A DNA stretch of 64,000 nt from Cellvibrionales bacterium (GTDB taxonomy: Bacteria > Pseudomonadota > Gammaproteobacteria > Pseudomonadales > JAHEIH01). The stretch covers positions 107,119 to 171,118 of the forward strand of contig JAHEIH010000007.1 of assembly GCA_024639455.1 (NCBI GenBank). Direction: 5' to 3'. Shown here one piece after another: positions 752-25,019 of the stretch (the stretch's first letter is position 1; each line of letters starts with the position of its first letter). The translations under genes and the position numbers were made by a program. Under the pieces are notes generated by a model. That model searched no databases. It was not told the DNA's origin and saw nothing but the letters and a program-made list of their open reading frames with translations.

Positions 752-818
752 ACGCCATCTCTTTTTATACATTAACTGATATCTACTTAGAACTAGAATA
801 ATGACCAAGGACGCTATT

Positions 819-2882
819 ATGACGAAACGTCTTGCCTTTATATCGACGTGGATGCTTGCTGCGGTAGTTGCTTTACCTGTAGTGGCACAACCTGAATCCA
901 TGTTTATGGATAACAGCGATGGCGCTGATTGGCCGAGCTACGGGCGAACGTATGCTGAAGATCACTACACACCACTTGAGCAGATTAACAAGGCAAACGT
1001 CGCTGACCTCGGCCTCGCTTGGTCGCTAGACCTAGATGTAGGGAACACCAATACCTCGCCGCTGGCTGTGGATGGTGTTTTATATCTGGCGGCTGGCTAC
1101 AGCATTGTGCACGCCATTGATGGTAAAACCGGCGAATTGCTCTGGAAATACGACCCTAAAGCGATCGCGGTGGCTGGTAAGACGTTGCGTGCGGGTTGGG
1201 GTATACGTGGTTTAGCCTACTGGGAAGGCAAAGTTTTCGTTGGTACCCAAGACGGTCGCCTGATTGCGCTTGACGCCAAAAATGGTGAGTTAATATGGAG
1301 CCAACAAACCACCGATATTGCAGGTGTGTTTATCTCTGGCCCACCTCGCGTCTTTAACGATAAGGTCATCATTGGCAACGGTGGTGCGGATTTCGTCGCC
1401 ATGCGTGGCTATGTGACTGCCTATAACACTGACACTGGTGCGAAAGAGTGGCGCTTTTACATTGTGCCTGGCAAGCCCGGCGAAAAAGACGGCGAAGTGT
1501 CTGATAGCGCCATGGAGTGGGCTGAAGACACGTGGTCGGGGGAGTGGTGGAAGTACGGTGGTGGTGGTGCTGCATGGAACGCCATGACCTATGATCCTGA
1601 GTTTAACCGCGTTTATATAGGCACCGGAAACAGTGGCCCCTATAACGAAGATATTAGAAACCCTGATGGCGGCGATAATTTATTTATTGCTTCGGTACTC
1701 GCCCTCGATGCCGACACCGGGGAATATGCATGGCACTATCAAAACACCCCTAATGATATTTGGGACTATAACTCGGCGCAGGATATGACGCTGGCGACCA
1801 TCAATATTGATGGTAAACCACGTAAAGTCATGTTCCATGCCCCTAAAAATGGTTTCTTCTACGTGATCGACCGCGAAAATGGCAAGCTCATTTCTGCGGA
1901 AAAGTTAGGTACGGTGAACTGGGCCGAATCCATTGATTTGGAGACCGGTCGTCCGGTAGAAACGCCATTTGCGCGCTACGGCACTGAGCCCGTGTTGATA
2001 TGGCCTAGCTTTCAAGGTACTCACTTTTGGCCACCACAAAGCTATAGTCCGAAAACCGGGCTGGTCTATGTGCCCATCATTGATATGCCTGTGCCATTTG
2101 CGCGTCTTGATGACCCCAAAGACTATGACCCTATTTTATTCACTCCTGACTTTGTCGGCCTAAAATCTGGCGACGGTGATGTACCGGCCGATGCTGGTGT
2201 GAGTTATCTGAAAGCCTGGGATCCACTTACTCAAAAAGCCAAGTGGCAAGTCAAGACGCCGGGTATTTCAAACTCAGGCACCATGGCGACCGGGGGGGGC
2301 TTAGTTTTCCAAGGTTTGGCTGATGGTTATTTGCATGCTTACGATGCTGATAGCGGCGCCGACCTGTGGTCGTACTACGCAAAAGTCGCGGTCACAGGGC
2401 CGCCAGTTAGCTACAGTGCCGATGGCGTTCAATATGTTACCGTTGCCACGGGGCCTCTCAATGGGGCGCCGGGTGCCTTTGGTTCTATTTCGGCGCAATT
2501 TGGTTGGGATAGTCGTATTCACCCGCGTCGCTTACTGACCTTTAAGCTAGGTGCTAAGGGCGAAGTCCCGGCCACGCCAGAACCCATTGTGAGCAAGGCC
2601 TTGTTCGGTGAAGAGATGAACTTAGATATGAAATTGGCGGCGGCGGGCGTGAAACAATGGGCGCGCTGCCAGTTGTGCCATGGTCCCGGCGTGGTGGCGG
2701 GTGGTAATGCGCCCGATCTAAGGGCGTCGGCGATCCCTCTCACTTTTGCAGGCTTTGAGCAGGTTGTTCGCCAAGGCGTACTTGAGCAAAAAGGCATGCC
2801 CAAGTTTGCAGAATTGACTGACCAAGAGCTCGAACAAATCAGGCATTACATTCGCGCTAAGGCGAGGGGCTTACAGTTTTAA
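819..2882 (+). CDS. PQQ-dependent, haem c-containing alcohol dehydrogenase
   Basis: This is a periplasmic quinohaemoprotein dehydrogenase of 687 residues. The start at 819 is preferred over the in-frame ATG at 801 because AAGGA at 807-811 lies eight bases before it and it gives a clean signal peptide (residues 1-24, ending PVVAQ). An eight-bladed PQQ propeller follows, with the typical repeats DGKTGELLWKYDP and DAKNGELIW, the WDYNSAQ segment and GTGNSGPYN. A C-terminal cytochrome c domain has CQLCH at Cys617-His621. The adjacent-cysteine pair found near PQQ in many methanol and ethanol dehydrogenases is not seen: the corresponding stretch reads GWGIRGLAY. The substrate cannot be read from sequence. 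Neighbouring aromatic catabolism suggests an aromatic or hydroxybenzyl alcohol. Confidence 0.9.
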   Translation: MTKRLAFISTWMLAAVVALPVVAQPESMFMDNSDGADWPSYGRTYAEDHYTPLEQINKANVADLGLAWSLDLDVGNTNTSPLAVDGVLYLAAGYSIVHAIDGKTGELLWKYDPKAIAVAGKTLRAGWGIRGLAYWEGKVFVGTQDGRLIALDAKNGELIWSQQTTDIAGVFISGPPRVFNDKVIIGNGGADFVAMRGYVTAYNTDTGAKEWRFYIVPGKPGEKDGEVSDSAMEWAEDTWSGEWWKYGGGGAAWNAMTYDPEFNRVYIGTGNSGPYNEDIRNPDGGDNLFIASVLALDADTGEYAWHYQNTPNDIWDYNSAQDMTLATINIDGKPRKVMFHAPKNGFFYVIDRENGKLISAEKLGTVNWAESIDLETGRPVETPFARYGTEPVLIWPSFQGTHFWPPQSYSPKTGLVYVPIIDMPVPFARLDDPKDYDPILFTPDFVGLKSGDGDVPADAGVSYLKAWDPLTQKAKWQVKTPGISNSGTMATGGGLVFQGLADGYLHAYDADSGADLWSYYAKVAVTGPPVSYSADGVQYVTVATGPLNGAPGAFGSISAQFGWDSRIHPRRLLTFKLGAKGEVPATPEPIVSKALFGEEMNLDMKLAAAGVKQWARCQLCHGPGVVAGGNAPDLRASAIPLTFAGFEQVVRQGVLEQKGMPKFAELTDQELEQIRHYIRAKARGLQF

Positions 2883-2938: not shown

Positions 2939-3367
2939 TTAGGCGTGTTTGAGCTCTAAGCTGCCTTTGCGCTGTTTGATCAGCCAGTTGCCATCCTGAT
3001 TGACTAGGGTGTCAACGAAACCTCCTACCAGAAGTGGACCTTCGCTGTTCACGGCGCCACCCTCTGATGCTGGGCCACTGACTAACCATACACGAGATGT
3101 GATAACCACCAGGTCCTCACTCTGAATGTCGATAACACTATTCAGTAGGGCGTGACATGTTGTTTTAGGTGGGCGTGAGAGAAAGGATTGCAGAATGGCC
3201 TGCTTACCGTGGACAGCATTATTGGGGTCACTTGGGCGGAACAATACGCCGTCCTCAGTGTACAGATCGACTAGATCGTGCCACTGATTATTATCCATCA
3301 ATTGGGTGGCGCGGTTCAGCAGTTGCTGGCACTCTATTTGTATCATTGCGCGGGTCATTCGGTCCAT
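2939..3367 (-). CDS. NTF2/SnoaL-like protein at the end of the ring-cleavage operon
   Basis: The 142-residue product has the NTF2-fold pattern of SnoaL-like and ring-hydroxylating dioxygenase beta-subunit proteins: an N-terminal helix, WHDLVDLYTEDGVLFRP, a GKQAILQSF helix, then beta strands ending in DGNWLIKQRKGSL. The start at 3367 is chosen because AGGA lies six bases upstream and it clears the upstream hydrolase stop at 3376; an ATG at 3391 would overlap that gene. It is the last gene of a minus-strand operon with the hydrolase, LigB and LigA. No partner oxygenase alpha subunit is nearby, so a small-molecule isomerase, lactonase or binding role is as likely. Function is unknown. Confidence 0.75.
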   Translation of the reverse strand: MDRMTRAMIQIECQQLLNRATQLMDNNQWHDLVDLYTEDGVLFRPSDPNNAVHGKQAILQSFLSRPPKTTCHALLNSVIDIQSEDLVVITSRVWLVSGPASEGGAVNSEGPLLVGGFVDTLVNQDGNWLIKQRKGSLELKHA

Positions 3368-3375
3368 AAGGTTTC

Positions 3376-4080
3376 CTATTGCTTTAGCCATTGGCGCATG
3401 GCGTCAGCCACGGCTTGTGGTGCTTCTACGGTTGACATATGTCCTGCACCGTCGATGGCGACAAGGATGCTTTGTGGAACGAGAGCTTGCATCTCCCTGT
3501 GCTGTGAAATTGGGCTCCAAGCGTCGTGCTCGCTGCTCAGGAGCAGGGTGTTAACCACGACGCTAGCCAAGACTGATTCAGCTTCGGGGCGATTCAGTAG
3601 CGCTTGGATTTCACCGTTGAATTGTGCAGGAGTATGTGAGGTTACCATATTTGTTAGGTCGGCCATCAGTGCATCATCTTGCAAGCCTTCTGGACCCATC
3701 ATAGGAGGTAACCATGCCTCGCATACGTCATGCATACCCTTGGCGTCAGCCAGGTCCAGTAGTTTTCGTCTGCCAGGGACTTCGCTATCGCGTTTGGGGT
3801 GCACGCCAGTATTGAGTAGCGCTAAGTGGGTGATGCGGTGAGGCGCTTGCTTGTAGACTTCAAGTGCAACCCTTCCTCCCATTGAATGGCCCGCCAGTGC
3901 AAATTTCCCGGGGCTATTTTCGAGCACATGTGACGCCATGGCTTCAATGCTATCGAAGCCTGCAAAGCTGAAAATGTGGCATTCTGCCACGTCCGTTAAT
4001 TGGTCTGCGACGGGCTGCCAGATACGTTGGTCGCACAGTAGCCCGCTCAACAAAACCATTGGCGTTTTTTGCTTAGTCAT
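3376..4080 (-). CDS. Alpha/beta hydrolase, candidate ring-cleavage product hydrolase
   Basis: This 234-residue cytoplasmic hydrolase has the alpha/beta hydrolase fold. The nucleophile elbow is GHSMGG, and the acid and histidine of the triad are visible as SSEHDAWSP and GAGHMS near the C-terminus. It starts two bases beyond the stop of the LigB-like gene, so translation is probably coupled. The position suggests it acts on a product of aromatic ring cleavage or on an aromatic ester, but the characterised SYK-6 4,5-cleavage pathway uses the amidohydrolase LigI for lactone opening, not this fold. The substrate assignment is therefore inference. Confidence 0.85.
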   Translation of the reverse strand: MTKQKTPMVLLSGLLCDQRIWQPVADQLTDVAECHIFSFAGFDSIEAMASHVLENSPGKFALAGHSMGGRVALEVYKQAPHRITHLALLNTGVHPKRDSEVPGRRKLLDLADAKGMHDVCEAWLPPMMGPEGLQDDALMADLTNMVTSHTPAQFNGEIQALLNRPEAESVLASVVVNTLLLSSEHDAWSPISQHREMQALVPQSILVAIDGAGHMSTVEAPQAVADAMRQWLKQ

Positions 4081-4082
4081 GG

Positions 4083-4925
4083 CTAGTCTTTGGTCTCGAA
4101 CACAATGTGGCCCAGCGCCGTATTGGAAATCGGTACGTGGTAATGACGGTGGATTTCCTTGACGTTATCGCCCAAAGCGCCGCGCATAATCAGCCACATG
4201 ACGGTCTCACTTCCCTCAGTACCGGTTTCGCGGATGTACTCTGTCTGTGGGATTTTCGCGAGCTCTTCTTGCTTATCGCTTAATTTATCCAGGAAGGCGG
4301 TATCCCATTCGCGGTTAATAATGCCTGCGCGCGCCCCAAGGAGTTGATGGCTCATACCGCCGGTGCCCCACACTTGGATATTAAGGTCGCCATCGTAGCT
4401 TTCAATCGCTTTTCGAATGGCTTTGCCAAGTGCTAAGCAGCGCTCACCCGATGGTGCTGGGTAGACCACCGTGTTGACCATGATGGGAACGACCTTGCAC
4501 GGCCATGCCTCTGGCTGTCCGAACATCAGTGACATAGGCACTGTAAGTCCGTGGTCGACTTCCATCTCGTTGATAATGGTGAGATCGAAGCCTTGTTGAA
4601 TGACGGATTGTGCGATGTGCCATGATAACTCTGCATCGCCTTTTACCGGGGGGACAGGTCGGGCGCCATAGCCTTCGTCTGCAGGGTGGTAGCTTTCGCC
4701 GCACCCAATGGCAAAGGTGGGGATCATTTTCATGTCAAAGGCGTTGGCGTGGTCGTTGTAGACCAGAACAACCACGTCAGGTTTTTCGTTGGCAATCCAT
4801 TGGCGAGTAAAATCGTAACCGGAGAAGACGGGGCGCCATTCCTCGGTGTCAGTTTGGTTGATGTCGATGATACGACCTAGCAGTGGCACGTGTGACGTAC
4901 CGACGCCGGCAGTGATCTTAGCCAT
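4083..4925 (-). CDS. ligB: LigB-type extradiol dioxygenase, beta (catalytic) subunit
   Basis: This is a class III extradiol dioxygenase of 280 residues, close to the length of protocatechuate 4,5-dioxygenase beta subunits. The iron ligand His12 is in GTSHVP at the N-terminus, NDHAN supplies another conserved His, and NEMEVDHGLTVP and GTGGMSHQL are typical of the family. The protein opens protocatechuate or gallate-type rings next to the hydroxyls, using non-haem Fe(II) and O2. Its start overlaps the stop of the LigA-like gene by one base (TAATG), the usual coupling for a two-subunit enzyme. Whether protocatechuate, gallate or 3-O-methylgallate is preferred cannot be told from sequence. Confidence 0.93.
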   Translation of the reverse strand: MAKITAGVGTSHVPLLGRIIDINQTDTEEWRPVFSGYDFTRQWIANEKPDVVVLVYNDHANAFDMKMIPTFAIGCGESYHPADEGYGARPVPPVKGDAELSWHIAQSVIQQGFDLTIINEMEVDHGLTVPMSLMFGQPEAWPCKVVPIMVNTVVYPAPSGERCLALGKAIRKAIESYDGDLNIQVWGTGGMSHQLLGARAGIINREWDTAFLDKLSDKQEELAKIPQTEYIRETGTEGSETVMWLIMRGALGDNVKEIHRHYHVPISNTALGHIVFETKD

Positions 4926-5314
4926 TATTCTGATTCTCCAATGTAGCGATTACCTTCGGGGGATCGGCCGCCCTTTTTCATCATGTCCATGTATTCTTCA
5001 GTAGACATATCGGTCATGGTCGACACTGCCGCGGCAACACTCATGCCTTCAGCCATGGTGATTTTTACCAAGTAGTAGATGTTACCACCCAGTGCGAGGA
5101 GCCTGTTCAGATCTCTTTCTAGCACCGCTTGAATTTGCTCTTCACTCATGGGCCATTTTGACATGTAGCCACGTTCGTCAGCGAAGAAGGCTTTGCGATT
5201 TTCTTCTGATTGTAGTGACATGCAAAATTGGTTGAGGTGAAAGCCAATACGCGCCATGTCGCCGTCGAAGACGGTGGTGCCAGGAATGTCTTGATAGGGT
5301 TTTTCGAGGGCCAT
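4925..5314 (-). CDS. ligA: LigA-type dioxygenase alpha (small) subunit
   Basis: The 129-residue product is the small helical subunit that caps the active site of LigAB-type dioxygenases. LigA features are visible: YQDIPGTTVFDG near the N-terminus, LNQFCMSL, ERDLNRLLALGGNIYYL and a MSTEEYMDMM stretch. The start at 5314 is chosen because AGGAGC lies just upstream; a longer frame reaching 5365 would run through a terminator hairpin. The ribosome binding site directly follows the T-run of that terminator. This gene therefore seems to be expressed by read-through from the demethylase upstream or from an internal promoter that I cannot see. Confidence 0.92.
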   Translation of the reverse strand: MALEKPYQDIPGTTVFDGDMARIGFHLNQFCMSLQSEENRKAFFADERGYMSKWPMSEEQIQAVLERDLNRLLALGGNIYYLVKITMAEGMSVAAAVSTMTDMSTEEYMDMMKKGGRSPEGNRYIGESE

Positions 5315-5324
5315 AATTGCTCCT

Positions 5325-5356
5325 AAAAAAAAGCCCCATCCATGTCGGATAGGGCT
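5325..5356 (-). terminator. Intrinsic terminator between demethylase 1 and ligA
   Basis: On the minus strand a ten-base-pair stem (AGCCCTATCC with GGATGGGGCT, one G-U pair, loop GACAT) is followed by seven T residues. It stands inside what otherwise looks like one operon, immediately before the ligA ribosome binding site. Confidence 0.85.
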
Positions 5357-5373
5357 GATGATCAACTGTGTTA

Positions 5374-6774
5374 TTAGGCTTGTTCGCGCCAGCCTTTAAC
5401 ACCGGAGTACTGTGTGCGTGCAACTTCAACATAAGGCACGGGGCTTACGGTAGCGCGAATTTCCATTTGCTTGTGAGGCTCAACGGTGGGTTTGCTTGTG
5501 CCGCCGTTCTCTTCGCCCCAAACAAATACCACTTCGGTACCTGGTTCTGCAAAATCTTCATCGATCATCGCTAGGGTCAGCATTTTGCGCTCGTTAGACG
5601 TATAAGCTACCCAAGTCGATAGGCCGATCACTTTGCCGTCTACCATAACTTTGTCGAAGGGGTGCATTGAGTAAACGGCTGAGGGGAAGTCGATGAATTT
5701 ACCGCGCTCATTTTCTTTGCCGTACTGCGACATTAACACTTCTGCTACGTCTTCATCGTACAGTGCTAAGGTGACTTTCTTACGTTTTTTAGCCACCGCC
5801 ATTTTTTCTAGGGCTTCGCGGCCAATGAAGTCGTGGTCGAATTTAACAAAGAAGCCGTAACCCAGGTCCCAGGGTGTCAGGTAGTAGTCTTCGATGTTGT
5901 TAGACACGAAGCTACCGCCGATTGAGCAGCTGCCTTCGTAACCGTCTGCTGGCAACCATTCCCGGTAAGCTTTCAAACTGTCACCCGTATAAATTGCTGG
6001 GAGGGGGGAGGGGATCCAGCCAGACTCGATGGTGTTTGAGGCATAAGTACGACCGCCAACTTGGCGCATGCCGAATTCAGCACCCGCTGCAACCAGCGCT
6101 TCTTTAACGGCTTTGCCATCTTCCCATGGGCCATACAGTTCAAAGCCGGGTTGACCCGCCATGCCGTGGCGCAGAGCACCAACAGTCTTACCGGCGATGG
6201 TAATCTCGGTCATATCGAAGAACTTCAAATCTGGAGGGGTTTGGCCAAGGACTTTTTCCATGGCTTTCATGGCGTTGGGGCCTTGAACTTGGTAGCGGTA
6301 AGATTTGCGATTTTCTTTGTCAGGGCGAGAAGCTGTGCGTTGATCCAGGGTGCAAGTTACGTCCCAGTCACCTGTCTCTGCATGGAACATGACCCAGTTC
6401 AACGTTGGTGCACGGCCGACTAAGTTGAAGGTGTTTTCGGCGAGATAGAACAGGATAACGTCACCAATAACATAGCCTTCTGGTGTGCAAGGAACCATTT
6501 GCTTGGCCTTGCCTGGCTTGTAGTTGTTAAAGCTATTGATAGACAATTTTTCTAACAGCTTGAATGCATCGGGGCCTTCTACCAAAAGGTCAGCCATGTG
6601 GTAAGACTGATCAAACAGAACGCATGCGTACTGCCAGCCGTGTTGCTCATCGCGCCAGTTGGTGAATTCGGCGGGCACGCCTGGATAAACGTTTGGTCCA
6701 ACTTGTGCGTTGCGCAGCATTTCCACGATGTTGCTGCTAGCTTGTAATTTTTCTTCTAAATTTTTGTATGTCAT
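5374..6774 (-). CDS. Tetrahydrofolate-dependent aryl O-demethylase (LigM/DesA family), copy 1
   Basis: This GcvT-fold enzyme of 466 residues moves the O-methyl group of a methoxybenzoate (vanillate, syringate or 3-O-methylgallate type) to tetrahydrofolate. The start at 6774 is chosen over 6792 because AGGA lies upstream and the length then equals copy 2. Family signatures are TNWRDEQ, SYHMADLLVEGPDAF, LVGRAP, LRHGMAGQPGFELYGP and RTYASN. Compared with copy 2 the tyrosine pair in the YVYP motif is altered to NVYP (Asn28, Tyr30), so one of two active-site tyrosines is replaced. Placement upstream of ligA-ligB and under a TGTATACA operator suggests a different substrate from the VanR-controlled copy, perhaps syringate or 3-O-methylgallate. 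Confidence 0.93.
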   Translation of the reverse strand: MTYKNLEEKLQASSNIVEMLRNAQVGPNVYPGVPAEFTNWRDEQHGWQYACVLFDQSYHMADLLVEGPDAFKLLEKLSINSFNNYKPGKAKQMVPCTPEGYVIGDVILFYLAENTFNLVGRAPTLNWVMFHAETGDWDVTCTLDQRTASRPDKENRKSYRYQVQGPNAMKAMEKVLGQTPPDLKFFDMTEITIAGKTVGALRHGMAGQPGFELYGPWEDGKAVKEALVAAGAEFGMRQVGGRTYASNTIESGWIPSPLPAIYTGDSLKAYREWLPADGYEGSCSIGGSFVSNNIEDYYLTPWDLGYGFFVKFDHDFIGREALEKMAVAKKRKKVTLALYDEDVAEVLMSQYGKENERGKFIDFPSAVYSMHPFDKVMVDGKVIGLSTWVAYTSNERKMLTLAMIDEDFAEPGTEVVFVWGEENGGTSKPTVEPHKQMEIRATVSPVPYVEVARTQYSGVKGWREQA

Positions 6775-6874
6775 CGAGGCTGTCCTATTCATTGCATTGG
6801 TTTAATTAGCTGCTCGTTGGCACCATAAGGTGGTTTAGCTAATGACGGTGCTAATATATCCTTAACTTCATATT

Positions 6875-8163: not shown

Positions 8164-9030
8164 TTACTGCTGTTGGTATTCCTGAACCCAATCAATGGTT
8201 TTGCCTAAACCGCCAAAGGGGTAAAAGTGAAGGCGAACGCGGCCGTGTTTTTCACTAAAGCCGGCAGCAAAAGCGTCGACCATTTTGTCTGGGCCTGCCG
8301 TGCCAATCAGTTTGGTGATCGAAATGCCGTATTTGGTGAGCACCGACGTTGAGGCCGAAACGCCACAGCGCGCGGCGAACTTGATGAGTGTGGGGATGCT
8401 GGTGGGGCCGGGTACACCGAGGCGCACTGGAGCATCGATGCCGTAGTTGCGCACTGCTTCCAGCCATTCCATGAAGGCATCGGGGTCAAAGCCGAATTGG
8501 GTGACGATAATGGGTTTCATGCCGCGATTGTTAATGTTGTCGCACTTTGATTTTAGGACTTCAAAGCATTCATCGTTGGTCATGTTTGGGTGGCCTTCAG
8601 GGTGGCCGCCAATACCGATGGCGATAATGCCATTGGCTTCAAACAGGCCGGTTTCGATTAGGCTGGTGGTGTCGGCAAATGGACCTTCTGGTTCTGGTGG
8701 GTCACCGGCAATGGCGAAGCAGCGCTTAACGCCGGCCTCTTTAACCATGCGCTCGAGCATGGTTTGTAATTCTTCGTGGCTCTTGATGCGGCGTGCAGAA
8801 AAGTGCGGCATGGGTTCGAAGCCTAGCTCGCGGACCATGACGGCTGCTGCAAGACGCGCTTCCAGGCTTTCGCCGGGTAAGAATGTTACCGCGACGGGAG
8901 TGCGTGGGGGCAGTGATTTAGCTATCTTGGGGAAGCTGTCGATGTCCTTGGCGGTAATCTCGATTGAGAAGCCATCGGTGATGTGGTCGGGGGCTTGGTC
9001 CCATTTTTCATGAATAACTGAATAGCTCAT
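8164..9030 (-). CDS. metF: Methylenetetrahydrofolate reductase (C1 oxidation direction)
   Basis: This 288-residue FAD-dependent TIM-barrel enzyme interconverts 5-methyl- and 5,10-methylene-tetrahydrofolate. Family marks are SIEITAKD at the N-terminus, AIAGDPPEP, IGIGGHPEGHP, IVTQFGFD and the C-terminal HFYPFGGLGKT. GGAGA lies six bases before the start. In Sphingobium SYK-6 a metF gene adjoins the demethylase ligM and works in reverse, oxidising the methyl-folate made by demethylation. Linkage here to two demethylases and purU points to the same job rather than methionine supply. It is divergent from purU, with two TGTATACA operators between them. Confidence 0.93.
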   Translation of the reverse strand: MSYSVIHEKWDQAPDHITDGFSIEITAKDIDSFPKIAKSLPPRTPVAVTFLPGESLEARLAAAVMVRELGFEPMPHFSARRIKSHEELQTMLERMVKEAGVKRCFAIAGDPPEPEGPFADTTSLIETGLFEANGIIAIGIGGHPEGHPNMTNDECFEVLKSKCDNINNRGMKPIIVTQFGFDPDAFMEWLEAVRNYGIDAPVRLGVPGPTSIPTLIKFAARCGVSASTSVLTKYGISITKLIGTAGPDKMVDAFAAGFSEKHGRVRLHFYPFGGLGKTIDWVQEYQQQ

Positions 9031-9418: not shown

Positions 9419-10276
9419 ATGAGTTCGTCTTTTGTTTTGAAATTATCATGTGCCGACCGCCCAGGTGTTATTAATGGCGTGACGGGAGTGCTGTTGGATA
9501 TGGGCGCAAACGTTACCGACGCGCAACAATTTAATGACCCCAGCACAGGTCGATTCTTTATGCGCGTTTTCATGACAACGCCTGACGCGGCAACAGAGGC
9601 TGATATTGCGCAGGCCCTGGCGCCGTTGGTTGAAAAATTTGATGCAAAAATATCTGTTCGTGATCAAAGTGTACCGAAGAAGGTCGTTATCATGGTGTCG
9701 CACTTGGATCACTGCTTAGGCGATTTGTTATACCGCATGCGTATCGGCGAGATGTCGATGGATGTTGTCGCCATCATTTCTAATCACCCAATGAGTAAAT
9801 TGAAAGTGTCAATGATTGGTGATATTCCCTATCACCACTTGCCCATTAGTGCCGATACTAAACCTCATCAAGAGGCGCAAGTTAAGCAGATTATTACCGA
9901 CAGTGGTGCTGAATTGGTTGTGTTAGCGCGTTATATGCAGATTCTATCGGACGATATGTCACGCTTCTTGGAAGGGCGATGTGTCAATATTCACCATAGC
10001 TCGCTGCCCGGCTTTAAGGGTGCCAAACCCTACCACCAGGCGTTTGATCGCGGTGTCAAGTTAATTGGTGCAACGGCCCACTTAGTGACATCAGATTTGG
10101 ATGAAGGCCCAATTATTGAACAGGATATCGAACATATCAGTCATGCTGACATGCCCGACGAGTTGGTGCGTAAGGGGCGCGACATTGAGCGCCGTGTCTT
10201 GGCTCGTGCTGTGGCTTACTTGCTACAGGATCGCGTGTTCTTGAATGGCTCAAAAACAGTGGTCTTCAAAGATTAG
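9419..10276 (+). CDS. purU: Formyltetrahydrofolate deformylase
   Basis: This 285-residue enzyme hydrolyses 10-formyl-tetrahydrofolate to formate and tetrahydrofolate. Residues 5 to about 80 form an ACT domain (LSCADRPGVINGVTGVLLDMGANV). Residues about 88-285 form the formyltransferase-fold domain with CVNIHHSSLPGFKGAKPYHQA and the GATAHLVTSDLDEGPII catalytic stretch. AAGGAAA precedes the start. Its location in an O-demethylation cluster, with a formate dehydrogenase operon 9 kb away, suggests it frees tetrahydrofolate from methyl-derived formyl groups instead of supplying purine synthesis. SYK-6 uses the ligase LigH at this position in its pathway. Confidence 0.94.
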   Translation: MSSSFVLKLSCADRPGVINGVTGVLLDMGANVTDAQQFNDPSTGRFFMRVFMTTPDAATEADIAQALAPLVEKFDAKISVRDQSVPKKVVIMVSHLDHCLGDLLYRMRIGEMSMDVVAIISNHPMSKLKVSMIGDIPYHHLPISADTKPHQEAQVKQIITDSGAELVVLARYMQILSDDMSRFLEGRCVNIHHSSLPGFKGAKPYHQAFDRGVKLIGATAHLVTSDLDEGPIIEQDIEHISHADMPDELVRKGRDIERRVLARAVAYLLQDRVFLNGSKTVVFKD

Positions 10277-12615: not shown

Positions 12616-14019
<1,404 letters not shown>

Positions 14020-14044
14020 TCAACATATGGCGTGAAAGACGATG

Positions 14045-14072
14045 AAAGGGGTGTTGATACACCCCTTTTTTT
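14045..14072 (+). terminator. Intrinsic terminator after demethylase 2
   Basis: The stem GGGGTGT with ACACCCC (loop TGAT) is followed by seven T residues. Confidence 0.88.
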
Positions 14073-14142: not shown

Positions 14143-15285
14143 ATGAGTTCTGAAAGGTTTATTCATACCAGTCACGTGGGAAGTTTGCCGCGCAGCATGG
14201 AATTGGCTCAGGTGTTGATCGCGAAGGATCACGGTGAGGCGGTTGATGCAGGTGAATTTGATAGCTTGGTTACTCAAGAAATTGGTGATGCGCTGCGCCA
14301 TCAGGTGGCGTCGGGTATTTCGATTGCGAGTGACGGCGAGTTGGGTAAGGTGGGTTATTCAACCTACATGACTGAGCGTTTGAGTGGCTTTGGCGATGCG
14401 CATATCGCACGCAAGCCTGCGCTAGATCTGGCCGAGCACCCTGATTTTGCCAAAAAGTTGGCCGCCATTATGGGTAGCCAAGAGTTCGTGCGTGCCGCTT
14501 GTGTCGACAAGGTGACGTTGGTCAACCTTGATCCCTTGCACGATGACATTCGCCGTTTTAAAGCGGCTATGGCATCGCTCGATAAGCCGGTGCAAGGGTT
14601 TATGAACTCTGCTTCTCCAGGTTTGATTACTGCCTTCCAGCCCAATAAGTACTACCCCACCCACGAGGCCTATCTGGCTGATTTGGTCGATGCGATGAAG
14701 GCGGAATACGAAGCCATTGTCGATGCTGGTTTTCATTTGCAGCTTGACTGCCCTGATTTGGCAATGTCGCGCCACACGGGCTACCAGGATGTTAGCGATG
14801 CCGACTTCTTGAAAATTGCGGCGGCCAACGTGGAGGCAATCAATGCTGCCACCGCCAATATTCCTGCTGAAAAAATGCGTATGCATATTTGTTGGGGTAA
14901 CTATGAGGGGCCGCACGACCACGATATACCGCTGGAAAATGTCATCGACACCATCCTCAAGGCGAAGCCTGCGACTATCTTGTTTGAAGGCGCCAATCCC
15001 CGCCATGAACACGAGTGGACGGTATGGCGCGATGCGGCTATTCCCGATGACAAAATTCTAGCGCCTGGCTTGATTGATACGTGTTCGAACTATGTAGAGC
15101 ACCCTGAATTAATTGCGCAGCGACTGCAGCGGTTCGTTGATATTGTTGGGCTTGAGCGCGTTATTGCCTGTACCGACTGTGGGTTTGGCACCTTTGCCGG
15201 TTATGGCAAGATTGATCCAGGCGTGACCTGGAAGAAATTGAAAGCCTTGCGTGAGGGGGCGGATATCGCCGCCGCAAGAAACTAA
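14143..15285 (+). CDS. MetE C-terminal-domain-like (cobalamin-independent) methyltransferase
   Basis: The 380-residue product matches only the catalytic C-terminal half of MetE, with no N-terminal domain. The start at 14143 is chosen because AAGGA lies seven bases upstream; a frame reaching back to 14083 has no such site. Zinc-ligand motifs of the family are visible as HICWGN (His and Cys) and the Cys of TDCGFGTFAG, with DGELGK near the N-terminus and QLDCPDLAMSR. These proteins transfer methyl groups to or from thiols. Beside the demethylase it may move methyl groups from methyl-tetrahydrofolate to homocysteine or another thiol as a second outlet to MetF. The methyl donor and acceptor are not known. 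Confidence 0.82.
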   Translation: MSSERFIHTSHVGSLPRSMELAQVLIAKDHGEAVDAGEFDSLVTQEIGDALRHQVASGISIASDGELGKVGYSTYMTERLSGFGDAHIARKPALDLAEHPDFAKKLAAIMGSQEFVRAACVDKVTLVNLDPLHDDIRRFKAAMASLDKPVQGFMNSASPGLITAFQPNKYYPTHEAYLADLVDAMKAEYEAIVDAGFHLQLDCPDLAMSRHTGYQDVSDADFLKIAAANVEAINAATANIPAEKMRMHICWGNYEGPHDHDIPLENVIDTILKAKPATILFEGANPRHEHEWTVWRDAAIPDDKILAPGLIDTCSNYVEHPELIAQRLQRFVDIVGLERVIACTDCGFGTFAGYGKIDPGVTWKKLKALREGADIAAARN

Positions 15286-15318
15286 AAAAAAGCCTGATCG
15301 AAAGATCAGGCTTTTTTT
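15284..15318. terminator. Bidirectional terminator between the MetE-like and aldehyde dehydrogenase genes
   Basis: The nine-base stem AGCCTGATC/GATCAGGCT closes a GAAA tetraloop and is flanked by an A run on the left and a T run on the right. It serves both convergent genes. Confidence 0.92.
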
Positions 15319-19294: not shown

Positions 19295-19819
19295 ATGATG
19301 AACAACGCAGCGCAAACAAACAGTTATTCGGATATCGATCCGGACCTTTGGCAGCGAGGGGTGGTCGATACCGTTGCCAACCTGAAGAAAAAACGCGGCG
19401 CGTTGCTGCCTATATTGCACGCAGTTCAAGACGAAATTGGATACATACCGCCGGCGGCCATTGATTACATCGGCAAGGCCCTCAATCAGACTGCCGCGGA
19501 AATTTATGGTGTGGTGAGCTTCTATCACCAGTTTCACACGTCGCCTGGCGGTGCCCACCAAGTGGAAATCTGCCGTGCAGAGGCCTGCCAAGCCATGGGC
19601 AGTCGTGCCCTTGAAGCCCATGCTAAAGATAGCTTGGGTATTGATTACCACCAATCCACCAGTGACCGCGAAATTCGCCTGGAGCCTGTTTACTGCCTGG
19701 GTAACTGCGCCTGCGCGCCATCGGTGCGTATCGATGACAAAATCTATGCACGCGTCACCCCTGAACGCTTTGATCGCTTGGTCGAAAGTGTGCGTACTAA
19801 GTCGGTGGAGGTGAAGTAA
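19295..19819 (+). CDS. fdsG: NAD-dependent formate dehydrogenase gamma subunit
   Basis: The 174-residue product is a thioredoxin-like [2Fe-2S] protein related to the 24 kDa (NuoE) subunit of complex I. Cluster cysteines are seen in CRAEACQAMG and CLGNCACAP. The N-terminal helical part has the typical GALLPILHAVQDEIGYIP and AEIYGVVSFYHQF stretches. It is the first gene of fdsG-fdsB-fdsA-fdhD-fdsD, whose product is a soluble molybdenum formate dehydrogenase. The first ATG is used, though the next codon is also ATG. A VanR-type operator lies upstream. Confidence 0.95.
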   Translation: MMNNAAQTNSYSDIDPDLWQRGVVDTVANLKKKRGALLPILHAVQDEIGYIPPAAIDYIGKALNQTAAEIYGVVSFYHQFHTSPGGAHQVEICRAEACQAMGSRALEAHAKDSLGIDYHQSTSDREIRLEPVYCLGNCACAPSVRIDDKIYARVTPERFDRLVESVRTKSVEVK

Positions 19820-21366
19820 TGGTTAAGGTATACGTTCCACAAGATACAACGTCCAAAGCGCTTGGCGCCGATGAAATCGCGTTCGCCATCGAAAGTTATG
19901 CCGCACAGCAGGGTATTGGTATCGAACTCGTGCGTAACGGATCGCGCGGTATGTTCTGGTTGGAAACGCTGGTTGAAGTAGAAACCGACGCGGGCCGTGT
20001 GGCCTTCGGTCCGGTGATGCCTGAGGATGTTGATGGCCTTCTCGCGGCAGGTTTGCTGCATGGCAATGAACAGCACGCGTTGTTTCTCGGCTTGACCGAG
20101 AGCATACCCTATTTGGCGAAACAGCAGCGCTTTTCCTTTGCCCGTGCCGGTATGGATGACCCCCTGTCGCTTGATTACTACACCGCCAATGGTGGTTTTG
20201 AAGGCCTGACAAAAGCGTTGGCAATGAATGGCCAAGCCATCGTTGATGAAGTAAAAAACTCAGGCCTGCGTGGCCGTGGCGGTGCGGCGTTCCCCACCGG
20301 CATCAAATGGCAAACGGTACACGATGCCCCCGCCGATGAAGGCGAGACCAAATACATCGTCTGCAACGCTGATGAGGGCGATTCGGGAACCTTTGCCGAT
20401 CGCTTGGCGATGGAGGCTGACCCCTACCAGTTAATTGAAGGCATGGTCATTGCCGGCCTGGCAGTGGGTGCTGAGTGCGGCTTTATCTATCTGCGTTCGG
20501 AATATCCCGAAGCACACCGCATTCTCAATGACGCCATCGCCCGCGCTGAGCGCGCAGGTTATTTGGGTGACAATATTTTGCAATCGGGCCGTCGCTTCGT
20601 ATTGGAAGTGCGTCTGGCCGCGAAAGCCTACATCTGCGGCGAAGAAACCGCGCTACTGGAAAGCTTGGAAGGCAAGCGCGGCATGGTTCGTGTTAAGCCG
20701 CCCCTGCCAGCGATTAAAGGCCTGTGGGGGCAACCCACCATCGTTAACAACGTTCTGACCTTTGTGGCCGTGCCCTTCATCTTGCGAGAAGGTGCCTCGG
20801 CATACGCCGATGTTGGTTACGGCCGCTCGCGTGGTACGCTGCCCTTCCAGTTGGCGGGTAATATTCAGCGCGGTGGTTTGGTCGAACTGGGTTTTGGTAC
20901 CACCTTGCGTGAATTGATGAATGACTTTGGCGGCGGTACTTTTTCAGGCCGCCCCATGCGTGCGGTGCAGGTCGGTGGCCCCTTAGGTGCCTATTTGCCT
21001 GAAGCTCAGTGGGATACGCCACTGGATTACGAATCGTTTGCGGCGATTCAAGGCGTGCTTGGTCACGGTGGAGTGGTGGTGTTCGACGACACGGTAGATA
21101 TGTCTGAACAGGCGCGCTTTTCGATGGAGTTCTGTGTGGCAGAATCCTGTGGTAAGTGTACGCCTTGTCGTATTGGCTCGACCCGCGGCGTTGAAGTGAT
21201 CGATCGCATTCGCGCCAACGAGTCGCGCCAGGCTAATATTGCCTTGTTAGAAGATCTATGTGAGACCATGGTGGACGGTTCGCTGTGCGCTATGGGTGGA
21301 ATGACCCCCTTCCCAGTAATGAGCGCACTGCGCCATTTCGGTGAAGACTTTGAGCGGGGAGAGTAA
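19819..21366 (+). CDS. fdsB: NAD-dependent formate dehydrogenase beta subunit
   Basis: The 515-residue flavoprotein subunit, related to the 51 kDa NuoF, binds FMN, NAD+ and a [4Fe-4S] cluster. The N-terminal ~130 residues form an extra thioredoxin-like region, as in FdsB. GLRGRGGAAFPTGIKW is the NAD/FMN loop, CGEETALLESLEGKRG follows, and ESCGKCTPCRIGSTRG binds the cluster. The start overlaps the fdsG stop by one base (TAATG), so translation is coupled. It passes electrons from formate to NAD+. Confidence 0.95.
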   Translation: MVKVYVPQDTTSKALGADEIAFAIESYAAQQGIGIELVRNGSRGMFWLETLVEVETDAGRVAFGPVMPEDVDGLLAAGLLHGNEQHALFLGLTESIPYLAKQQRFSFARAGMDDPLSLDYYTANGGFEGLTKALAMNGQAIVDEVKNSGLRGRGGAAFPTGIKWQTVHDAPADEGETKYIVCNADEGDSGTFADRLAMEADPYQLIEGMVIAGLAVGAECGFIYLRSEYPEAHRILNDAIARAERAGYLGDNILQSGRRFVLEVRLAAKAYICGEETALLESLEGKRGMVRVKPPLPAIKGLWGQPTIVNNVLTFVAVPFILREGASAYADVGYGRSRGTLPFQLAGNIQRGGLVELGFGTTLRELMNDFGGGTFSGRPMRAVQVGGPLGAYLPEAQWDTPLDYESFAAIQGVLGHGGVVVFDDTVDMSEQARFSMEFCVAESCGKCTPCRIGSTRGVEVIDRIRANESRQANIALLEDLCETMVDGSLCAMGGMTPFPVMSALRHFGEDFERGE

Positions 21367-21367
21367 G

Positions 21368-24232
21368 ATGACAGTCCAATTTTTTGAAGTCGATAAAGAC
21401 TACGGTACCCCTAAAAGCGTTTCGACTAAGCGTGTTTCGCTATTAATTGATGGTGTTCAGGTCAATGTGCCCGAGGGCACGTCGGTGATGCGCGCGGCCA
21501 TGGAAAATGGTATTAGCATTCCCAAGTTGTGTGCCAGTGATAACCTCGAATCGTTCGGCTCGTGCCGCCTGTGTGCGGTGCAGATCGAAGGCCGCCGTGG
21601 CACACCCGCGTCGTGCACCACGCCGGTTGAAGAGGGCATGCAAGTCACCACCCAGAATGCGCGCCTCGCTAAATTGCGTCGCAACGTGATGGAACTGTAC
21701 ATCTCGGATCACCCGCTGGACTGCTTAACATGCCCCGCTAACGGCAACTGCGAATTGCAGGACATGGCCGGTGCTGTAGGCCTGCGCGACGTGCGCTACG
21801 GCTACGAAGGGGCCAACCACCTCGACGCGCCAACCGACGATTCCAACCCCTATTTCACCTTCGATGCGAGCAAGTGTATTGTGTGCTCACGCTGTGTGCG
21901 CGCCTGCGAAGAAGTTCAGGGCACCTTCGCATTGACGATTGGTGAACGCGGTTTTGATTCGAAGGTCACCGCTGGCGTGAAGCAAGATTTCTTGGATTCA
22001 GACTGTGTATCGTGTGGTGCCTGTGTGCAGGCTTGCCCTACAGCAACGCTGACCGAAAAATCCGTCATTGAGCACGGCCAACCCGATCGCGCTGTTGTGA
22101 CTACCTGTGCCTATTGCGGTGTGGGGTGTTCGTTCAAGGCCGAGATGAAAGGCGACCAACTGATCCGCATGGTGCCCTACAAAGGTGGACAGGCCAACAT
22201 GGGTCACTCCTGTGTGAAAGGCCGCTTTGCCTTTGGTTATGCCACCCACCCCGATCGCGTGACCAAACCGATGGTACGTGAGAGCATCGATCAGCCATGG
22301 CGTGAAGTATCGTGGGATGAGGCGCTGGGTTTTGCCGCTAATAAGCTGCGTGGTATCCAGCAACAATATGGCCGTGAAAGTATTGGTGGTATTACTTCGT
22401 CACGTTGCACCAATGAAGAGACCTACCTGGTGCAGAAACTGATCCGCGCTGCTTTCGGTAACAACAACACCGATACCTGTGCCCGCGTGTGTCACTCGCC
22501 CACCGGTTTTGGTTTGAAGACTACGTTGGGTGAGTCGGCCGGTACCCAAACCTTTGAGTCAGTGTTGCACTCTGATGCGATCTTGGTTATTGGCGCGAAC
22601 CCCACCGATGCCCACCCGGTATTTGGTTCGCTGCTGAAGAAACGCATTCGCCAAGGTGCTAAGCTGCTGGTAGCTGATCCCCGCGCCACCGACTTGGTGA
22701 GCAGTCCGCACATTAAGGCTGAAGTGCACTTGAAGTTGATGCCCGGCACTAATGTGGCGTTGATCAATGCGCTGGCCCACACCGTCATTACGGAAGGTTT
22801 GGAAGCGACCGACTTCATTGCTGAGCGCTGCGATCAAGCGGCCTACCAGCAGTGGCGCAGTTTCATCGCCGAAGAGCGCAACTCGCCCGAAGCGATGTCA
22901 GACGTACTTGGTATTCCCGCAGAAGACATTCGTCATGCGGCGCGCACGTTTGCGGCGGCCCCTAACGGCGCGATTTATTACGGTTTGGGCGTGACCGAAC
23001 ACTCGCAGGGTTCGACCATGGTGATGGGTATTGCCAACTTGGCTCTGGCGACAGGGAACATTGGTCGTTTGGGCGTGGGTGTGAATCCGCTGCGTGGTCA
23101 GAACAATGTTCAAGGTTCGTGCGATATGGGGTCATTCCCGCACGAATTCCCCGGCTATCAACACGTTGCCGATAACAACGTTCGCGCAAGGTTTGAGGCG
23201 AGCTGGGGGGTGACGCTGGACAGCGAGCCAGGTCTTCGCATTCCCAATATGTTCAATGCCGCCTTGGATGGCCAATTCAAGGGGATGTACGTGCAGGGTG
23301 AAGATATTGCTCAGTCAGACCCCAACACCACCCACGTTGAAGCGGCTCTGCGCGCGCTGGAATGTCTGGTGGTGCAGGATATCTTCCTCAATGAAACCGC
23401 TAAGTTCGCGCACGTGTTCTTGCCTGGTTCATCGTTCCTGGAAAAAGACGGTACCTTCACCAACGCCGAGCGTCGTATTAACCGCGTACGCCGCGTAATG
23501 GCGCCGCTGGCGGGTATGGCTGACTGGGAAGTTACCCAAGCACTGGCTAACGCCATGGGCTACCCCATGAGCTACACCCACCCATCGCAAATCATGGATG
23601 AAATCGCCAGCTTGACGCCGACCTTTACCGGTGTGAACTACGACAAGCTTGATAAAATGGGCAGTATTCAGTGGCCTTGCAACGAGCAAGCCCCCGAGGG
23701 GACGCCGACCATGCACATAGAACAGTTCCCGATTGGTCTGGCTCGCTTTGCTTTGACCGAGTACGTGCCCACGCCTGAGCGCGCCAACCGCCGCTTCCCG
23801 CTGTTGTTAACCACAGGGCGTATCCTGTCGCAGTACAACGTAGGCGCGCAAACGCGCCGTACCGCGAACCAACACTGGCATGAAGAAGATATGTTGGAAA
23901 TCCATCCTGTGGATGCCGATGATCGCGGTATCCGCGATGGCGACAAGGTCAGTATTGCCAGCCGTGTTGGCGTGACCGTGTTGCATGCCAAAGTGTCAGA
24001 TCGCATGCAGCCTGGTGTGGTGTACACCACCTTCCACCACCCTAACAGCGGTGCCAACGTGGTAACCACCGATAATTCTGACTGGGCGACTAACTGCCCC
24101 GAGTACAAGGTAACCGCCGTACAGGTAGCACAAGTGAATGCCGATTCGGTGTGGCAATCGCAGTTCAAGCAGTTTGATGAGCAGCAAAAAGACTTCTTAG
24201 CGCAGGCGGAACGCCACAGCGAGGAAGCCTAG
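21368..24232 (+). CDS. fdsA: NAD-dependent formate dehydrogenase alpha (molybdenum) subunit
   Basis: The 954-residue catalytic subunit oxidises formate to CO2. The start at 21368 follows a GGGGAG site and lies one base past the fdsB stop. The N-terminal region has a [2Fe-2S] ferredoxin domain (PKLCASDNLESFGSCRLC), a His-Cys cluster segment and two [4Fe-4S] clusters (CIVCSRCVRACEE; CVSCGACVQACP). A further CAYCGVGC cluster opens the bis-MGD domain. Cys375 in ARVCHSPT is the molybdenum ligand, so this is a Cys enzyme, not a selenocysteine one. The C-terminal dinucleotide-binding domain is intact. It needs MobA (facing the operon) and FdhD. Confidence 0.96.
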   Translation: MTVQFFEVDKDYGTPKSVSTKRVSLLIDGVQVNVPEGTSVMRAAMENGISIPKLCASDNLESFGSCRLCAVQIEGRRGTPASCTTPVEEGMQVTTQNARLAKLRRNVMELYISDHPLDCLTCPANGNCELQDMAGAVGLRDVRYGYEGANHLDAPTDDSNPYFTFDASKCIVCSRCVRACEEVQGTFALTIGERGFDSKVTAGVKQDFLDSDCVSCGACVQACPTATLTEKSVIEHGQPDRAVVTTCAYCGVGCSFKAEMKGDQLIRMVPYKGGQANMGHSCVKGRFAFGYATHPDRVTKPMVRESIDQPWREVSWDEALGFAANKLRGIQQQYGRESIGGITSSRCTNEETYLVQKLIRAAFGNNNTDTCARVCHSPTGFGLKTTLGESAGTQTFESVLHSDAILVIGANPTDAHPVFGSLLKKRIRQGAKLLVADPRATDLVSSPHIKAEVHLKLMPGTNVALINALAHTVITEGLEATDFIAERCDQAAYQQWRSFIAEERNSPEAMSDVLGIPAEDIRHAARTFAAAPNGAIYYGLGVTEHSQGSTMVMGIANLALATGNIGRLGVGVNPLRGQNNVQGSCDMGSFPHEFPGYQHVADNNVRARFEASWGVTLDSEPGLRIPNMFNAALDGQFKGMYVQGEDIAQSDPNTTHVEAALRALECLVVQDIFLNETAKFAHVFLPGSSFLEKDGTFTNAERRINRVRRVMAPLAGMADWEVTQALANAMGYPMSYTHPSQIMDEIASLTPTFTGVNYDKLDKMGSIQWPCNEQAPEGTPTMHIEQFPIGLARFALTEYVPTPERANRRFPLLLTTGRILSQYNVGAQTRRTANQHWHEEDMLEIHPVDADDRGIRDGDKVSIASRVGVTVLHAKVSDRMQPGVVYTTFHHPNSGANVVTTDNSDWATNCPEYKVTAVQVAQVNADSVWQSQFKQFDEQQKDFLAQAERHSEEA

Positions 24233-24233
24233 A

Positions 24234-25019
24234 TTGACCGACCGCGAGTGGCCGATTCAGCGTTGGTCACTGAATGTGGCGGCGTCGTCCGCCACCGATC
24301 GCGTTGCGCTGGAGTGCCCGGTAGCACTGGTTTATAACGGTGTTAGTCACGCTGTCATGATGGCAACACCGAGTGATCTCGATCATTTGGCGCGCGGGTT
24401 TAGTGTGACCGAAGGTATTGTCCCCAGTGTGGATCACATCTATGGCATCGATGTTTTCCCTCATCTCGGTGGAGAGGTTGAAAGCTATAGTGTGGAGCTT
24501 GAAATAAGCGCGCGCTGCATGAGCCATCTGAGCCAGCAGCGGCGACAGTTGTCAGGTCGCACAGGGTGTGGCCTGTGTGGTGTCGAGTCGTTGTCGCACG
24601 TATTGCGAGACGTCGAAAGCGTGAGCTCGGGTGTGGTCATAGCACCGGAGTCGATTGATACCGCTGTGCGTAATCTTTCGCAGCAGCAGCCCCTGCAAGC
24701 CACCACTGGCGGTGTTCACGCGGCGGCATGGTGTGGAGAGTCCGGGGATGTACAGTGTGTTTTCGAGGATGTTGGGCGCCATAATGCCCTAGACAAATTG
24801 CTGGGGTCGCTGCTCGCCGATAAGGTAGATATTAACACGGGCTTTGTGTTGATGAGTAGCCGCGGCAGTTACGAAATTGTGCAAAAGGCCGCGGTAATGG
24901 GGGTATCTACCCTAGTCACGCTGTCGGCCCCGAGTGCCTTGGCTTGCCAACTGGCGAGTCGTTTCGGGATGACATTGATAGGCTTTGCCCGCCCAGGCAG
25001 GCATAGCCAATACAGTTAA
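24234..25019 (+). CDS. fdhD: Formate dehydrogenase sulfurtransferase FdhD
   Basis: The 261-residue protein transfers sulfur to the molybdenum cofactor of formate dehydrogenase. The active-site cysteine pair is in RTGCGLCGVES (Cys112 and Cys115), and HAAAWC, FEDVGRHNALDK and SSRGSYEIVQK are family motifs. The start is a TTG at 24234, two bases past the fdsA stop, with GAGGAAG inside the end of fdsA as ribosome binding site. No better ATG or GTG preserves the N-terminal WSLNVAASS stretch. Confidence 0.94.
   Translation: MTDREWPIQRWSLNVAASSATDRVALECPVALVYNGVSHAVMMATPSDLDHLARGFSVTEGIVPSVDHIYGIDVFPHLGGEVESYSVELEISARCMSHLSQQRRQLSGRTGCGLCGVESLSHVLRDVESVSSGVVIAPESIDTAVRNLSQQQPLQATTGGVHAAAWCGESGDVQCVFEDVGRHNALDKLLGSLLADKVDINTGFVLMSSRGSYEIVQKAAVMGVSTLVTLSAPSALACQLASRFGMTLIGFARPGRHSQYS

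Follow-up and report, generated by a model that had tools for sequence, protein, structure and literature searches.

What is a protein that resembles only the catalytic half of the methionine synthase MetE doing beside genes for the demethylation of methoxylated aromatic acids? The question is raised by a gene in a 64,000-nucleotide stretch of DNA from a Cellvibrionales bacterium, referred to hereafter as the window. A profile search with the predicted 380-aa protein gave a match of 39 bits, above the cut-off, to PF01717 (Meth_synt_2, the MetE catalytic domain); this was the sole domain found, and there was no match to the N-terminal folate-binding domain of MetE (PF08267). Scores against all curated methionine synthase models were far short of the cut-offs, the highest being 81.5 bits against a required 406. 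An AlphaFold model built on 38 aligned sequences (pLDDT 92, pTM 0.92) was compared with solved structures, and the predicted fold was closest to the structures of Thermotoga maritima MetE with zinc, with homocysteine and with methyl-tetrahydrofolate (methyl-THF) (TM approximately 0.77) and to the MesD-type structure 3rpd, then to uroporphyrinogen decarboxylases.

The active site was mapped by alignment to Escherichia coli MetE and 94 family members. In addition to the zinc ligands (Table 1), residues S14, E66 and D202 aligned with S433, E484 and D599 of E. coli MetE, which are named as its homocysteine contacts (PMC7857596). All seven zinc and homocysteine residues are kept in 93–94 of the 94 relatives. 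Other positions, including P257, D261, N285, H288 and H290, are invariant in the family and absent from MetE, and give it a signature of its own, CWGNYxGPH...D and E-x-x-N-x-x-H-x-H-E (NxxHxHE). The position of MetE Trp561, which we take to be the residue stacking on the pterin, is occupied by Phe in 90 of the 94 relatives. A sequence-only reading of this DNA had described a protein with the zinc-site motifs of MetE and the catalytic half alone; this description held, with PF01717 as the only domain and the aligned zinc ligands conserved in 94/94 relatives. Judged from the alignments, the protein is a single PF01717 barrel with predicted intact zinc and homocysteine sites.

Going by its sequence, the protein is not a known methionine synthase, as it scores below every curated cut-off and falls in a clade of its own. 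Phylogenetic analysis placed the family apart from MetE, MesD and YxjG-like proteins with a support of 99, although long branches make the deeper joins unsure, and within the same tree the close orthologues formed a clade with a support of 100. Identity to MetE and MesD was 21–24% (approximately 21% to E. coli MetE, 22–24% to four MesD proteins). Tree position and identity together ruled out a MesD or YxjG-type identity; membership of MesD is recognised by about 55% identity or more to MesD together with a neighbouring MesX (DUF1852) gene, and no MesX-like neighbour was present among the window genes examined. The family is an uncharacterised clade within the MetE superfamily, and the papers found contained no activity, expression or mutant result for it. 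Single in-frame TGA codons in six roseobacter relatives were considered as selenocysteine codons and rejected, every one being an ordinary C-terminal stop.

Comparison with characterised enzymes of this superfamily shows what is shared. The catalytic barrel, zinc ligands and homocysteine contacts are common to the MetE proteins of E. coli and T. maritima, whereas the MetE-like protein lacks their N-terminal folate half, has Phe for Trp561 and carries the CWGNYxGPH and NxxHxHE motifs as additions found only in its family. MesD, the aerobic core methionine synthase that works with MesX, is likewise a single-domain PF01717 protein of aerobic bacteria and 3rpd is among the best fold matches, but its partner is MesX whereas the usual partner of the MetE-like gene is a SnoaL protein. 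Methionine synthesis by MesD requires oxygen and MesX, and does not require MetF. The core-MetE/MesB of Dehalococcoides (PMC7005905), set beside the MetE-like protein here by its description, is also a single-domain zinc enzyme and acts on homocysteine without folate, but belongs to strict anaerobes and uses corrinoid donors.

Table 1. Features of the window considered here, with positions in the window and the basis of each assignment.
Feature	Position	Strand	Basis
SnoaL-like (NTF2) protein, MgaD-like	2939..3391	-	PF13577, 52.5 bits
Alpha/beta hydrolase, position expected for a DesC/MgaC-type CHMOD esterase	3376..4080	-	PF12697; putative function by analogy (PMC12314914)
LigB-type extradiol dioxygenase beta subunit	4083..4925	-	PF02900; NF009903, 481 bits, over cut-off
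LigA-type extradiol dioxygenase alpha subunit	4925..5365	-	TIGR02792, 149 bits, over cut-off
DesA, syringate O-demethylase	5374..6792	-	NF047633, 858 bits, cut-off 800
Divergent methylenetetrahydrofolate reductase (MTHFR)	8164..9030	-	PF02219, 58.8 bits
PurU, formyltetrahydrofolate deformylase	9419..10276	+	TIGR00655, 318 bits, over cut-off
LigM, vanillate/3-O-methylgallate O-demethylase	12619..14019	+	NF047885, 733 bits, cut-off 580
Terminator-like hairpin between ligM and the MetE-like gene	14044..14069	+	11-pair stem and U run; dG -21.1 kcal/mol, z -5.9
MetE-like single-domain protein, 380 aa	14143..15285	+	Open frame with ATG start; PF01717 over cut-off
Zinc ligands H248 and C250 (HxC)	14884..14892	+	E. 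coli MetE H641, C643; 94/94 relatives
Zinc ligand E282	14986..14988	+	E. coli MetE E665; 94/94 relatives
Zinc ligand C346	15178..15180	+	E. coli MetE C726; 94/94 relatives
Terminator-like hairpin 3' of the MetE-like gene	15285..15318		dG -22.3, z -6.6

The genes around the MetE-like gene are those of methoxylated aromatic acid catabolism. The minus-strand run from 6792 to 2939 encodes DesA, LigA, LigB, an alpha/beta hydrolase and a SnoaL-like protein, which by analogy with MgaC and MgaD would be the expected set for converting syringate into 3-O-methylgallate, opening the ring to give CHMOD, hydrolysing the ester and then isomerisation (PMC12314914). In the available part of that paper, the syringate operon of Pseudomonas sp. 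NGC7 likewise combines a hydrolase (MgaC) and a SnoaL_4 protein (MgaD) with an extradiol dioxygenase, but demethylation is by a Rieske enzyme and no MetE-like gene is described. The likeness between the window SnoaL protein and MgaD is at domain level only. A designation of its gene as DesD was ruled out, as DesD of Novosphingobium aromaticivorans is listed as a glutathione S-transferase (PMC12997858). Genes for an aromatic-acid transporter, a GntR regulator, an aldehyde dehydrogenase, a TonB receptor and formate dehydrogenase with FdhD also lie around the DesA run and LigM. The MTHFR homologue scores far under the usual MetF cut-offs, and its type fits, by analogy, the methyl-THF oxidising enzyme of Sphingobium SYK-6 (PMC12585457). 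The one-carbon module of SYK-6 leading from LigM/DesA to MTHFR shares its demethylases and MTHFR type with the window, while the available part of its published description contains no MetE-like protein.

Three further observations concern the oxidation of one-carbon units and the demethylase complement. A gene at 801–2882 (+) converges on the DesA operon from its SnoaL side and encodes a methanol/ethanol-family PQQ-dependent dehydrogenase (TIGR03075, over cut-off) that carries a cytochrome domain at its C-terminus; this enzyme could oxidise methanol freed from CHMOD. At 19295–25019 (+) lie genes for formate dehydrogenase subunits, of which alpha exceeds its curated cut-off, and for FdhD; together with PurU these would complete oxidation of the methoxyl carbon to CO2. 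The host also has a third intact gene of the LigM/DesA family (L140 5079-6446, contig C13), which at 557 bits does not reach the LigM cut-off and precedes a transporter-like gene; that this third copy is broken was ruled out, the TGA concerned being its stop codon.

The sequence-only reading had placed weight on the position of the MetE-like gene directly after a methyl-folate-producing enzyme, suggesting that methyl groups could pass directly to a thiol. LigM, a THF-dependent O-demethylase, is indeed encoded upstream on the same strand, and the co-occurrence in Sphingomonadaceae described below agrees with a link to demethylation; position is nevertheless no proof of a methyl-folate donor, as the 123-bp gap between the genes contains a terminator-like hairpin. 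In a same-genus relative the two genes are divergent (L003/L018). Given the hairpin and this divergence, the ligM transcript need not include the MetE-like gene. The case for methyl-folate as donor from the LigM position is weakened further by orthologue clusters that contain a Rieske VanA-type protein or no demethylase, and by the Phe at the Trp561 position.

A scan of public genomes identified 80 orthologue loci at 67–81% identity, mostly from sphingomonads, the remaining hosts being roseobacters, Rhizobiales, Betaproteobacteria and a few Gammaproteobacteria. DesA or LigM was encoded within 10 kb of the MetE-like gene in 43 of the 80 loci. A SnoaL-like gene was directly adjacent on the same strand in 48/80 (43 downstream, 5 upstream), its start often being overlapped by the stop codon of the MetE-like gene, and was found anywhere in the locus in 58/80. 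Of all partners, the SnoaL gene is the most constant, ahead of the demethylases; genes of this kind have been assigned to products of 3-O-methylgallate ring fission. A homologue of the hydrolase encoded at 3376-4080 was found in 31/80 loci, MTHFR in 22/80 and PurU in approximately 20/80. The clearest cluster, on plasmid pLA3 of Novosphingobium pentaromativorans, comprised genes for the MetE-like protein, an NTF2 protein, IclR, an aminomethyltransferase (DesA), the hydrolase, MTHFR, PurU, LigA, LigB, FolB and FolD. Roseobacter orthologues had unrelated genes around them.

Co-occurrence with demethylases was assessed in 200 Sphingomonadaceae genomes, counting as orthologues proteins of at least 67% identity and more than 560 bits, and as DesA/LigM proteins over the curated cut-offs. 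An orthologue was present in 39 genomes and DesA/LigM in 37, all of them among those 39; orthologues were thus found in 37/37 genomes with DesA/LigM vs 2/163 without (Fisher's exact test 2.6e-38, which ignores phylogeny). LigA was present in 58/200 genomes, including all 39 with the MetE-like gene, and among these LigA-bearing genomes the orthologue occurred in 37/37 with DesA/LigM vs 2/21 without. An MTHFR homologue was found in all 37 DesA/LigM genomes and was absent from the two that had the MetE-like gene and no DesA/LigM. The genome counts are uncorrected for phylogeny, and genes of one block are gained and lost jointly. The MetE-like gene lay within 15 kb of a DesA-type gene in 30/39 genomes (of a LigM-type gene in 0/39), and such linkage can alone produce co-occurrence, so that the tie to demethylases might reflect shared inheritance of a gene block and no function. 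We regard this as very improbable: the pairing recurs with differing order and orientation in Alpha- and Gammaproteobacteria, it held in a genome where gene and demethylase are 660 kb apart (G146), and overlap with the SnoaL gene is frequent.

Beyond this sample the association with demethylases was looser. DesA/LigM over the cut-off were lacking from 12 of the 45 orthologue genomes reached via public loci (one of them a fragmentary genome); one such locus encodes SnoaL, hydrolase, LigA and a VanA-type Rieske protein with the MetE-like protein (L034), another SnoaL, hydrolase, LigK and LigU (L035). Among 150 Rhodobacteraceae genomes, any MetE-like protein was found in 10 of the 18 with DesA/LigM and was missing from 8 of the 18 (Fisher p 0.06), and nearly all of those found belonged to a clade of approximately 50% identity. 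Demethylase-like genomes with MTHFR yet without the MetE-like gene, among them G213 and G225, were also seen. These cases indicate that production of methyl-THF is neither necessary nor sufficient for presence of the gene; its steadier association is with SnoaL and ring-fission genes.

Relatives at 35–52% identity sit in catabolic clusters of other kinds. One type contains a HisD-like dehydrogenase, a LacI regulator, a cupin, a hydrolase and an RraA or HpcH/HpaI aldolase, another a CaiB-type transferase, a glyoxalase and a second PF01717 protein, while further relatives lie beside a VanA-type Rieske protein or PDC-hydrolase-like amidohydrolases. A 2-oxoglutarate oxygenase was encoded near the Dietzia relative, AMP-binding proteins and branched-chain amino acid transporters near that of a haloarchaeon, and one Sphingobium genome had seven copies of the MetE-like gene. 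With such varied clusters and the seven-copy genome, the wider family looks like one of catabolic rather than biosynthetic enzymes. Wide occurrence of homologues away from demethylases, which the sequence-only reading would have counted against itself, is seen in this wider family (roseobacters, haloarchaea, actinobacteria) and not in the close Sphingomonadaceae orthologues.

Some sphingomonads (L108-L113, G095, G272, G259, G253 and G293) carry more than one distant MetE-like paralogue, frequently with a pair inside 4–8 kb, and have amidohydrolase-like, MFS-like, HpcH/HpaI-like and small carboxymuconolactone-decarboxylase-like neighbours, constituting an undescribed catabolic cluster. Loci L127 8486-10719 and L114 8046-10194 each pair a MetE-like gene from the 44% clade with an immediately adjoining gene whose PF01717 product belongs to a different subfamily (105 bits); a CaiB-type transferase and a member of the glyoxalase family are encoded there too, and the two paired proteins are possibly a two-protein enzyme. 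Roseobacter clusters L099 and L100 encode a MetE-like protein, a hydrolase, an RraA-family protein, a cupin, a HisD-like dehydrogenase and several SnoaL-type 'ester cyclases', and the Marinovum version lies near a DmdA gene.

The constancy of the SnoaL gene, present also in genomes without DesA/LigM (L029, L034, L035, L039 and L051), bears on the main rival explanation, namely that the MetE barrel here serves a new purpose, thiol or zinc chemistry other than methyl transfer. The protein would act with SnoaL on what ring fission of 3-O-methylgallate, gallate or protocatechuate yields, for instance by isomerisation or opening via a thiol adduct. LigA in 39/39 Sphingomonadaceae with the gene, the aldolases (HpcH/HpaI or RraA-type), hydrolases, cupins and PDC-hydrolase-like amidohydrolases beside wider relatives, and the family-specific H288 and H290, not found in MetE, point the same way, and the UroD superfamily offers a precedent for repurposing such a barrel in its epoxide:coenzyme M transferase (PMC10418091). 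The complete homocysteine set S14, E66 and D202 is kept, however, which another substrate would not require, and 19 of the 21 LigA genomes without DesA/LigM also lack the gene, so that ring cleavage alone is no reason for having it. On balance this explanation seems to us rather doubtful, though it deserves serious consideration.

A biosynthetic role was considered from the methionine supply of the host and its relatives. By PF01717, the host genome has neither MetE nor MesD, only the MetE-like protein and one YxjG-like protein. Full MetE, recognised by its N-terminal domain, was found in 0/39 Sphingomonadaceae with the gene vs 18/161 others, while MesX, present in 8/200, always accompanied it, a distribution that would allow a possible role in reserve methionine synthesis without B12. 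The protein could then be a cobalamin-independent core methionine synthase for B12 shortage, merely regulated or inherited with the aromatic catabolism genes; the conserved active site agrees with this, as does a Phaeobacter core methionine-synthase-like gene, likened here by description, that is suspected of residual methionine synthesis (PMC12366255). The host's single PF02574 match, however, lies in a 1241-aa frame of the size expected of MetH; the MetE-like protein is therefore not its sole methionine synthase, which argues against a purely housekeeping role, and a MetH-type PF02574 protein occurred in 49/51 genomes with the gene. As the eight MesX genomes all already have the MetE-like gene, it is no substitute for MesD, and such close tracking of DesA is not expected of a biosynthetic enzyme. 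We consider this explanation unlikely.

The reading that we favour, tentatively and at somewhat less than even confidence, is that methoxylated aromatic acid catabolism (of syringate, 3-O-methylgallate and vanillate) has recruited the MetE-like protein as a zinc-thiolate S-methyltransferase, with homocysteine the likely acceptor. What the analysis shows is the predicted fold, the zinc and homocysteine sites, the separate clade and the genetic linkage to the DesA/LigAB/hydrolase/SnoaL module, and from these we infer acceptor and reaction. A methyl group freed in the methoxy-aromatic pathway would be taken up by a thiolate bound to zinc, most probably that of homocysteine. Candidate donors are 5-methyl-THF from DesA/LigM, or the methyl group while still on 3-O-methylgallate or the ring-fission ester CHMOD. 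In the handling of methyl groups this step would form a side branch, the main route being MTHFR, PurU and formate dehydrogenase. Against this reading stand the missing folate-binding half, the change of Trp561 to Phe, and methionine being no obvious sink for a catabolic methyl flux. A direct route, in which the MetE-like and SnoaL proteins would together move the methyl group of 3-O-methylgallate or of the ring-fission methyl ester to homocysteine without folate or cobalamin, strikes us as a long shot.

Syringate and vanillate are main products of lignin breakdown, and the fate of their methyl groups limits engineered strains; use of LigM in place of VanAB in Pseudomonas needed extra folate-recycling genes and a host mutation (PMC12997858). 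The MetE-like gene, which accompanied DesA/LigM in all sampled Sphingomonadaceae genomes positive for these demethylases, is a concrete gap in the published pathway schemes consulted, where it does not appear. If the protein is not a thiol methyltransferase, it would represent another re-use of the MetE barrel. If it is, lignin catabolism would be tied directly to methionine supply, and were the direct route to hold, a methoxyl-to-methionine path would exist inside lignin-monomer catabolism.
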